In this document: positions 47,506 to 49,527 of the stretch, piece by piece
Numbering within the stretch: the stretch's first letter is position 1
Layout: each line of letters opens with the position of its first letter
Source: Sulfurimonas gotlandica GD1
Lineage (GTDB): Bacteria; Campylobacterota; Campylobacteria; Campylobacterales; Sulfurimonadaceae
Assembly: GCF_000242915.1 (NCBI RefSeq)
Contig: NZ_AFRZ01000001.1
Span: forward strand, 2,666,001 to 2,730,000
Length of the DNA: 64,000 nt
Reading direction: 5' to 3'
Translations under genes and position numbers: made by a program
Notes under the pieces: generated by a model
Seen by the model: the letters and a program-made list of their open reading frames with translations, nothing else
What the model was told of the DNA's origin: nothing
Database searches by the model: none

Positions 47506-47522
47506 ATATTAATTAGTATTAA
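47506..47522 (+). repeat. 17-bp palindrome-like repeat, copy 2
   Basis: ATATTAATTAGTATTAA, the same 17 bases as at 24606. It overlaps the stop codon region of tetR on the minus strand. With copy 3 at 48643 it forms an inverted pair around tetR-rnpB. Confidence 0.5.
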
Positions 47523-48136
47523 ATTCTTACACTTTCCCAAAAAAACTCAACATGCTTTTCAAACTGAGTTGATATTGCAGTTGTGGAGTCATTATCAAAC
47601 CTCATAAGTGTTATCTGTAATCTCATATAGAATAGGGTGGATAAAAATTCATAAGACATCATCATAGGATCTTGTGATCGTATGAGTGAGTTTTGCATCA
47701 TTATAAAGAATGCCTCAGAGAGTATCTTTACATTCTTATCGTGAAATTCACTCATAAACTGCTCTCTAAGCTCTTTGTTTTGGAAAAGCTCTATCATGAG
47801 TAGTCTAAACATGTTTTCGTTGCTCTTATCAAACGTGAGAAGCTTATACTGCATCGTAAAGTTTTGCAAAAAAGCTTTACCTTTCATAGCAGATTCTTTT
47901 ATATCTGTATTTCCCTGAGAGAATGGCGAACTAAATATACCTTTTGCAACCTCTAGAAATATTTCCTCTTTATTCTTGTAGTGATTATAGATAGCACTCT
48001 CTCTAATACCTACTTCTTTTGCTATTTTTCTTACACTTGTACCTTTGTATCCAAGCTCAGAGAATAGGGCAGTTGATACTTTTAGTATCTTTTGTTTTGT
48101 ACCGGTTCTTTTATGTGGTGTCGTATTTTCGGGCAT
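47519..48136 (-). CDS. TetR-family transcriptional regulator
   Basis: 205 residues. The N-terminal helix-turn-helix (about 14-60) is clear: ILKVSTALFSELGYKGTSVRKIAKEVGIRESAIYNHYKNKEEIF. The C-terminal ligand-binding region is Met- and Phe-rich, suggesting a hydrophobic ligand, but its identity is unknown. AAAAGGTC precedes the ATG. The promoter region between this gene and RNase P RNA holds four 14-bp palindromes with exact 32-bp period, two flanking its own -10, so it very likely represses itself. It is separated from oorC by a terminator and so is not evidently a regulator of that operon. Confidence 0.9.
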   Translation of the reverse strand: MPENTTPHKRTGTKQKILKVSTALFSELGYKGTSVRKIAKEVGIRESAIYNHYKNKEEIFLEVAKGIFSSPFSQGNTDIKESAMKGKAFLQNFTMQYKLLTFDKSNENMFRLLMIELFQNKELREQFMSEFHDKNVKILSEAFFIMMQNSLIRSQDPMMMSYEFLSTLFYMRLQITLMRFDNDSTTAISTQFEKHVEFFWESVRI

Positions 48137-48156: not shown

Positions 48157-48266
48157 TGAACAAACGTTAACTTTAAAAGAATTATATATGAACACTTGTT
48201 AATTTAAGCTTATTTTATTAAGAACATTTGTTCATTTATATTCAGACTGATATGAACAAGTGTTCT
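48157..48266. promoter_or_regulatory. Four-site TetR operator array, 32-bp period
   Basis: Palindromes TGAACAAACGTTAA (48157-48170), TGAACACTTGTTAA (48189-48202), AGAACATTTGTTCA (48221-48234) and TGAACAAGTGTTCT (48253-48266). All start exactly 32 bp apart, about three helical turns, so all face the same side of the DNA. The core is GAACA-NN-YGTTM; the two sites nearer rnpB are perfect GAACA/TGTTC dyads and the two nearer tetR are slightly degenerate. Sites 1 and 2 flank the likely tetR -10; site 4 is about 45 bp upstream of the rnpB start. The regulator is presumed to be the adjacent TetR protein. Confidence 0.85.
48181..48186 (-). promoter_or_regulatory. Probable -10 box of tetR
   Basis: TATAAT on the minus strand, lying between operators 1 and 2 and 45 bp before the tetR ATG. 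Bound repressor at either site would block it. Confidence 0.5.
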
Positions 48267-48310: not shown

Positions 48311-48636
48311 ACAGGTACAGCAGATAGTGACTTGGCTTATTTCAAGAGGAAAGTCCGGGCTGCTATAAGACAGTGTTCCATTTAACTAATGGCCGTAGTA
48401 ATGCGAGGGAAAGTGCAACAGAGAGTAGACTGCCGCAGCAATGCGGTAAAGGTGAAAGGGTGGAGTAAGAGCCCACCAGTCTTTATAGCAATATAGAGAG
48501 CTTGTAAACCCAACATGGCAGCAAGAAACAGATGGTCAGCGTCTTATAATGCTACTGTTTCGCTAGAGATACTATGTAAATAGTAAAGTAGATTAATGCT
48601 ATCAAAACAAAACCCGGCTTACGCTGTACCTATTTT
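48311..48636 (+). ncRNA. rnpB: RNase P RNA
   Basis: Catalytic RNA of RNase P, which trims tRNA 5' ends. The 5' and 3' ends pair (AGGTACAGC with GCTGTACCT, helix P1). Universal landmarks are GAGGAAAGTCCGGGC near the 5' end, the CR-II/III stretch AGAGTAGACTGCCGC and GGTGAAAGGGTGGAGTAAGAG, the ACAGAGAGTAGAC-type J region, and the 3' ACAAAACCCGGCTTA, which pairs to form P4. Bacterial type A by overall layout, about 326 nt. Boundaries are estimated from helix P1. No protein gene lies between it and the operators upstream. Confidence 0.95.
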
Positions 48637-48657: not shown

Positions 48658-48744
48658 CAATACTCAACTAAAATGTGTAGAATTATTATTTCAAGAGAAT
48701 TTACATTATGTTAACCAATGAAACTTATTATTAGGAATATAAAA

Positions 48745-49527
48745 ATGTTATTTAAAAAACCAATTTTAATCCTCTCGTTACTACTTAGTGTTTCTACGCT
48801 TTATGCAAATGAATTTAGTTTTAGAAAATATGATCATGTTAAAGCGTTTTATAAAGCAAATTGTATAGAGGCTATAGAAGTAGCTAAAAAGCATAAACTG
48901 CCTCCTGCTGCCATATTAGCTATAGCAGGACTTGAATCTGGATATGGAAGAGGATATGTAGCTCAGATTACAGGAAATATTCTTAGTCTGGGTGCCTTTA
49001 AAGGAGATAAAGAACTTCCTAGATTGTATCTACCCTACTCTAAATCAAAACAGAGTGTTATATTTAACCCTAATGAAATAAAAAAACATGCCAAAGATGA
49101 TTTAACATGGAAAAAAAGACCAAAAAGCTTAAAAAGAGACTATAGACCTTCCCCATATGCTGGAACAACAAAGAATCTTGAACTTTTGACTTATGATAAA
49201 AGACTAAAGTATAGTGCACATAAGGCCTGCTTTAATGATTTTGCAACTAGATGGATAATAGACAGTTCAAAAGTAAAAGTTTTTAAGGAAGCTCGTATTT
49301 GGTTAGATGAGTTAGTTGAAAAGCATGGCATAGAGATACTATTTACTAAAGATGTAAATGTTAAGTTTATATCAAAGATTGGTGGGCACCCTCACTCTTT
49401 TAATTATAGAGAAACTTGGCCAAAAAAAGCTAAGCACATTATGAAAAAAGTTGGACTTGTTAAGCTCACAAATGATATTCAATTTAAAGCTATGAAGTTT
49501 GATAGCGCCTGGAGTAATAATATATGA
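48745..49527 (+). CDS. Glucosaminidase-domain (Bax-like) exported protein
   Basis: 260 residues from the ATG at 48745, which sits behind AGGAATATAAAA; an upstream in-frame ATG at 48718 adds nine residues. Signal peptide LILSLLLSVSTLYANE, then a glucosaminidase/Bax-like domain: KKHKLPPAAILAIAGLESGYGRGYVAQ with the catalytic Glu in LESGYG, and GNILSLGAFKGD. It probably hydrolyses peptidoglycan glycan strands in the periplasm. Its stop overlaps the next small gene by 4 bp. Confidence 0.8.
   Translation: MLFKKPILILSLLLSVSTLYANEFSFRKYDHVKAFYKANCIEAIEVAKKHKLPPAAILAIAGLESGYGRGYVAQITGNILSLGAFKGDKELPRLYLPYSKSKQSVIFNPNEIKKHAKDDLTWKKRPKSLKRDYRPSPYAGTTKNLELLTYDKRLKYSAHKACFNDFATRWIIDSSKVKVFKEARIWLDELVEKHGIEILFTKDVNVKFISKIGGHPHSFNYRETWPKKAKHIMKKVGLVKLTNDIQFKAMKFDSAWSNNI

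Follow-up and report, generated by a model that had tools for sequence, protein, structure and literature searches.

Comparison across related genomes shows that the array of four palindromic sites found in Sulfurimonas gotlandica GD1 follows the adjacent tetR-family gene and not the gene for RNase P RNA (rnpB), and that tetR, the array and dif lie together at the chromosome terminus, in a fixed order and with a fixed dif polarity, as judged from the genome sequences. The explanation we favour, while giving it slightly less than an even chance, is that an autoregulated TetR protein builds a helically phased complex beside dif which serves as a terminus landmark. Specifically, TetR dimers would fill the array in phase to give a compact complex, their binding at sites 1 and 2 would repress tetR (meaning that the supply of protein would be set by array occupancy), and the complex beside dif could be read as a terminus landmark by the division or chromosome-dimer-resolution machinery. 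Terminus organisation and its coupling to cell division are understood mainly from enteric bacteria and Bacillus, and a protein linked to dif whose array is short and exactly in phase offers a direct, testable handle on the subject elsewhere.

Within the window (i.e., the whole 64-kb stretch of DNA that was analysed), four dyads with the consensus ATGAACRNNYGTTCAT start at 48157, 48189, 48221 and 48253, in steps of 32, 32 and 32 bp. These are site 1 (TGAACAAACGTTAA, 48157-48170), site 2 (TGAACACTTGTTAA, 48189-48202), site 3 (AGAACATTTGTTCA, 48221-48234) and site 4 (TGAACAAGTGTTCT, 48253-48266), each without an assigned strand, recognised by pattern match and kept in relatives. The pattern GAACANNYGTTM was found in the window at these four sites only (counted as 6 strand-matches, since the pattern fits sites 3 and 4 on both strands), compared with a mean of 0.40 and a maximum of 3 in 100 shuffles. 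Throughout the 2,952,682-base genome, two copies of GAACANNYGTT lying 4-34 bp apart were found at a single place, the array, and the reversed-pattern control gave 0. Both the coordinates and these pattern scans thus bear out the exact 32-bp period of four palindromic sites claimed by an earlier, sequence-only reading, and the genome scan for dyads which it suggested found the array to be the only close pair in the genome. When 56 arrays were aligned, GAAC and GTT were near-invariant across sites and the spacers were variable except for two blocks, one around the tetR -10 and the other being CTTA; base 5 of the core is R in relatives and not A alone, which refines the GAACA core originally described.

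The tetR-family gene (47519..48136, minus strand) encodes a predicted array binder of 205 aa, in which the Pfam domain TetR_N (PF00440) was detected with 53.1 bits against a cut-off of 24. Its AlphaFold model (pLDDT 76) has an ordinary all-helical TetR fold, and in a structure search a TetR-family regulator came top among the PDB matches listed (Z 13.7, rmsd 3.9 over 179 residues), with EthR among the TetR regulators in the best structural matches. The domain score and the fold together place the protein in the TetR family; the structure search yields the TetR fold alone, by which a RefZ-like protein and an ordinary repressor are indistinguishable. Orthologues from six families are 44-92% identical, and in an alignment of 16 sequences the HTH is strongly conserved and a FEKH..(F/Y/I/L)FW motif at the C-terminal end is invariant. 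The likely tetR -10 (48181..48186, minus strand; ATTATA on the plus strand, TATAAT on the minus strand) was placed between sites 1 and 2 from a conserved block, AATTATATATGAAC, which is present in the consensus of the 56 aligned arrays and near-identical in a comparison of six; a generic promoter scan called neither the tetR nor the rnpB promoter. This block supports the earlier proposal that sites 1 and 2 flank the tetR -10 and fits autorepression, while comparison across relatives supports the assignment of the sites to the adjacent tetR. We consider it very likely that the array is bound by the adjacent TetR-family protein, and highly probable, if a little less so, that this protein represses its own gene.

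To follow the array in relatives, we searched 99 same-genus and same-order genomes for TetR, taking as orthologues all matches of at least 170 bits (a cut-off of our own choosing), and found an orthologue in 55 of them (own genome counted). Upstream regions were read at 56 loci, namely 48 from the same genus (counting our own and two from G052) and 8 from five other families. The same-genus loci had steps of 32/32/32 in 24 cases, 32/31/32 in 19 and 32/32 in 2 (where three sites were found), with single loci at 32/31/43, 32/32/33 and 32/32/31. Exact 32-bp pairs occurred in 45 of the 99 genomes and, among the matches listed, were all beside a TetR orthologue; the reversed-pattern control gave 0 in all 99. 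A further scan covered named genomes (218 relatives, of which the best 80 were kept; mostly named Sulfurimonas, and partly the same contigs as the 99). Among these best 80 of 218, at least four sites were present at 77 loci and the first three steps lay within 1.5 bp of whole 10.67-bp turns at 76. The four exceptions were L222, which has no array; L231, whose broken array shows steps of 32 and then 63 bp in a relaxed scan; L216, with a single step of 34 bp; and L192, where there are three sites and these are in phase. Because a random step would pass this test with a probability of about 0.28 by our reckoning, such agreement in phase is not due to chance, bearing in mind that related genomes are not independent. 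Four loci carry a fifth site, either 32 bp beyond the fourth (L163, L166 and L202) or 22 bp beyond it (L220), suggesting that arrays may grow or shrink by whole units.

Step lengths in the other families were 22/22/22 (G076 and G093), 22/31/33 (G062), 43/43/43 (G083), 32/32 (G097), 33/33 (G068 and G061) and 33/32 (G086), i.e., mostly 22, 32-33 or 43 bp, or about 2, 3 and 4 helical turns. All 8 of these loci fell within about 1.2 bp of whole turns at a repeat of 10.6-10.7 bp (lengths 22, 31, 32, 33 and 43). On a quick TetR tree the whole step pattern changes 26 times, and step 2 alone changes at least 14 times with values of only 31, 32 and, once, 34 (a count which excludes three loci with fewer than three steps). 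Given that steps differ from one another by 1-2 bp or else by whole turns, the sites lie on one face of the helix, meaning that it is the DNA face that is conserved and not the distance. Same-face phasing, which had been proposed from the period alone, is therefore upheld by the whole-turn steps of 76 of the 80 named loci and 8 of the 8 other-family loci; random spacing or loss of sites in relatives is not the rule (4 exceptions in 80).

The other neighbour of the array is rnpB (48312..48636, plus strand; RF00010, 217.8 bits), and the sequence-only reading had raised the possibility that it is under TetR control. Proximity speaks for this idea, in that site 4 ends 45 bp before the RNA and rnpB adjoins the array in 75 of the 80 named loci. 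Among the remaining five, L185 is too short to be informative, and at L204, L222, L229 and L231 rnpB was not found beside tetR or the array by blastn: L204 keeps its array, as does L229, where the array and dif stay and rnpB lies 4.7 kb away on the opposite side of tetR. Beyond Sulfurimonas and close relatives, the only group in which rnpB was found as the neighbour of the array, it was near the array in none of 7 informative other-family loci (searched with blastn, and with Rfam in stretches up to 20 kb); the eighth, G086, is uninformative as its contig extends no more than 353 bp upstream of tetR. Conversely, a search for rnpB in eight same-genus genomes without a TetR orthologue gave 3 matches (G023, G043 and G049), and in all three rnpB follows oor genes with neither tetR nor a site between. 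Arrays without rnpB (at the 7 other-family loci, and by blastn at L204, L229 and L231) and rnpB without sites lead us to reject control of rnpB as the main role of the array. As site 4 also appears to lie upstream of the likely rnpB core promoter, we regard TetR control of rnpB as highly improbable and rnpB as, in all probability, a bystander.

What the earlier reading overlooked is that the array lies beside dif and at the terminus. The dif site in the window (TTTCAAGAGAATTTACATTATGTTAACC, 48689..48716, plus strand) is about 490 bp from the array middle and identical at 27 of 28 positions to S. denitrificans dif as listed, along with a Nitratiruptor difH site, in the accessible text of Carnoy and Roten (PMC2731167). 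With its 28-bp motif, a 19-base core that is single-copy in the genome and a position near the terminus, it has the features of a classical dif of the XerC/XerD type. We found the exact 19-base core in 53 of the 99 genomes, 44 of which (45 loci) have a TetR orthologue, and at all 45 loci dif shares a contig with tetR, lies on the array side of that gene and is read from the opposite strand. The distance between tetR and dif ranged from 453 to 20650 bp with a median of 707, being under 1.6 kb in 39 of the 45 and 6-21 kb in 4. Among the named loci (best 80 of 218), dif with at least 24 of 28 matches was present in 55, at 458-3641 bp and invariably on the side of the array; the 25 without it comprised 12 with under 3 kb of array-side sequence and 13 with 5-10 kb. 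A mobile element inserted at dif was considered and rejected, as no second dif-like site (at least 24 of 28) was found in the 80 named loci.

Linkage is not universal. Nine of the 53 genomes with the dif core have no TetR orthologue, and around their dif we found neither another TetR nor a dyad array (three of the stretches were short on one side); the TetR-array system is, on this comparison, dispensable. Eleven genomes have an orthologue but not the exact core. In four of them (G001, G018, G025 and G035) the contig stops 0.25-2.1 kb upstream, G086 also ends too early, G007 has a 25/28 dif variant, G062, G097, G076 and G093 have difH, and neither was seen in G061. The one clear exception to linkage is L222:10001-10591, a tetR orthologue 71% identical without array, dif or rnpB nearby. 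We also observed that in L257 (G064), whose genome belongs to the G083 family, dif is flanked by other genes and no TetR orthologue was found, which would point to gain or loss within one family. In the window itself, dif is followed by a glucosaminidase-like ORF (48718-49527; Pfam 29.5 bits, just below the cut-off of 30.2), whose given start is one base after dif, with a later ATG that may be the real start.

Four loci from two families (L077, L078, L081 and L082) carry difH instead of dif, 139-156 bp from tetR. Their site is identical at 25 of 25 positions to the Nitratiruptor site (accessible text of PMC2731167) and lies between the array and an XerH-like recombinase ORF of 350-374 aa; a Phage_integrase domain was present in both of the two ORFs (of four) that were searched against Pfam. 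The combination of the motif with a single long Xer recombinase was seen in these four loci only. With four XerH-like queries, we found no Xer gene or close relative of the recombinase in the window, and the leading same-genus chromosomal matches were partial and 33-37% identical. Searches for difH in our own genome gave 19 and 24 matches versus 19 and 23 in the control, i.e., noise.

In all 12 one- or two-contig genomes, representing four families, the array lies at 0.46-0.55 of the circle from dnaA, and in our own genome at 0.491. GC skew in the window is mixed up to 12 kb, stays positive between 12 and 48 kb and is then close to zero as far as 60 kb, with the best change point at 50.3 kb, a weak but consistent sign of the terminus. 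We then compared gene neighbourhoods in 12 tetR-centred regions, each no longer than 20 kb (232 ORFs of at least 90 aa in all). tetR was the sole cluster common to six families; murA was common to 4 of the 6 and other neighbour genes to two or three. The sharing of murA by four of six families indicates some inherited synteny, so that the linkage could be partly inherited. Four other families have murA no more than 10 kb from tetR, but the two are 0.77 Mb apart in our own genome, where a J-domain/MerR/murA block is found at 1.94 Mb and tetR at 2.71 Mb (genes named by eye). The link to dif has thus outlived the link to murA in Sulfurimonas, and we think it probable, well short of certain, that the tetR-array-dif linkage at the terminus is maintained by selection.

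We also asked where else such sites occur. The 19 other places in the genome that match GAACANNTGTTM are all inside ORFs of 80 aa or more, and therefore none is a clear promoter site; all 3 looser sites elsewhere are likewise inside ORFs. Non-array strict matches numbered 14 forward versus 6 in the reversed-pattern control, and 10 versus 9 in reverse. Strict single sites are thus somewhat commoner than in the control, and real binding at some of them is possible. A scan allowing two mismatches performed no better than its control (157 matches versus 163). Variants with G at base 5 are covered by the full-palindrome searches only. Across 7 Sulfurimonas genomes that are closed or nearly so, these found the full palindrome at 9 places, comprising 6 in arrays, 2 in genes and 1 at an operon start. 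The last of these (L239:1501-1547; G012:C1:84799) combines a perfect TGAACATATGTTCA with a weaker site 33 bp away, in one genome only, at the start of an operon that includes a ParA/Mrp-like ATPase (named by eye), and may possibly be an extra target. With this one possible exception, strict sites gave no promoter target besides tetR itself. The 19 stray places leave a gap of 858 kb, centred 1.5 kb from dif; random placement produced a gap this large in 4.0% of trials, and in 0.13% its centre also fell within 50 kb of dif, an observation made post hoc in one genome (G000) and with one looser match lying 105 kb from dif.

How should these results be weighed against other explanations? The main rival is an ordinary multi-operator autorepressor, whose array would control tetR only (perhaps with weak single-site targets) and whose proximity to dif would be inherited or neutral. 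The location of the array at the tetR promoter, with sites 1 and 2 around the -10, agrees with this, as do the residual synteny near dif (murA, J-domain and MerR genes) common to some families and the several dif-bearing genomes without tetR. We nevertheless consider it a possibility that is clearly less than likely, given that the strict sites point to no promoter but its own (G012 being the one possible exception), that the tetR-array-dif order and dif polarity are kept at 45 of 45 loci while the neighbours change, and that the array is found beside two different dif/Xer systems.

Other functions at the terminus are harder to reconcile with the data. A role as an accessory element of Xer recombination, shaping DNA at dif as PepA and ArgR accessory sites do at plasmid cer, or as a repressor of xerH, would suit families f4 and f18, in which the array lies between tetR and the difH/xerH-like genes, with difH 139-156 bp from tetR. 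Such accessory sites normally need a fixed geometry, however, while the distance to classical dif ranges from 0.45 to 20.7 kb, and the window holds no close relative of the XerH-like recombinase, making this explanation unlikely. More improbable still is a replication-fork barrier like Tus-Ter or RTP: the array does have a terminus position and several phased sites, but the sites are near-palindromic and there is no mirrored array across dif in the window.

A landmark role for the TetR protein is proposed by analogy, since RefZ and SlmA (both of the TetR family) and MatP mark other chromosome regions. According to the accessible text of PMC6657595 and PMC3116907, TetR-family RefZ and SlmA are chromosome-position cues for division, and MatP is the Ter protein. 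RefZ, which acts in septum placement in Bacillus subtilis, resembles the array protein in its TetR fold and is a DNA-bound landmark acting on division; it was also the top NCBIfam model for the window protein, yet with 49.8 bits against a cut-off of 180 (three other-family orthologues scored 51-62 bits against the same cut-off). SlmA, a nucleoid occlusion factor, shares the TetR fold, palindromic sites and chromosome-position logic, and its NCBIfam model scored 29.8 bits against a cut-off of 120. As both scores are far below the cut-offs, the TetR protein is a member of neither family. RefZ relies, in the text available to us, on five motifs at separate positions, with two on each arm and the fifth close to oriC, whereas we found one phased terminus array, and in our own genome paired or phased sites only opposite dnaA, plus the 19 single strict matches elsewhere, some of which may also be binding places. 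SlmA sites are mainly in coding regions and absent from Ter (accessible text of PMC3116907), a layout which the stray single sites of our genome resemble in being inside genes and in the post hoc, one-genome gap around dif. The main array here, on the other hand, is at the terminus itself, and the accessible text mentions no phased terminus array for SlmA. The MatP-matS system of the E. coli Ter macrodomain is similar to the proposed role in that a dedicated DNA-binding protein marks the terminus, but with 23 scattered 13-bp sites (accessible text of PMC3116907) versus one four-site array here, and none of the strict sites scattered in the MatP manner was found in the 64-kb terminus window beyond the four. 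There is one array per chromosome here, unlike the scattered sites of SlmA, MatP and RefZ. MatP is not a TetR protein. EthR and further TetR repressors known to form oligomers on long operators have a similar fold and also place several dimers on one operator, although we know of no helically quantised spacing across families or dif linkage for repressors of this type. An EthR octamer appears in the title of a reference cited in PMC6657595.

A literature search for a TetR protein at the dif or terminus of these bacteria, with most subscription journals outside its coverage, found no such report, and to our knowledge no terminus landmark has been described in Campylobacterota. Such a single-array terminus landmark would be unlike MatP, SlmA or RefZ. 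In its fullest form, our proposal is that Campylobacterales may possess a single-array terminus 'centromere' or anchor, in which a TetR-based, self-regulated, phased complex would couple the terminus to division or dimer resolution and would have been kept across two dif/Xer systems, possibly together with stray single sites away from the terminus; this wider version is more tentative than the landmark role itself, and we give it less than even weight. The array further amounts to a natural experiment in helical phasing, since families differ in placing the same sites about 2, 3 or 4 turns apart. One locus, L083 (G061), differs from those of the other families in that its first site is centred in a long perfect inverted repeat with arms TATATCAAAAACACTTTA.
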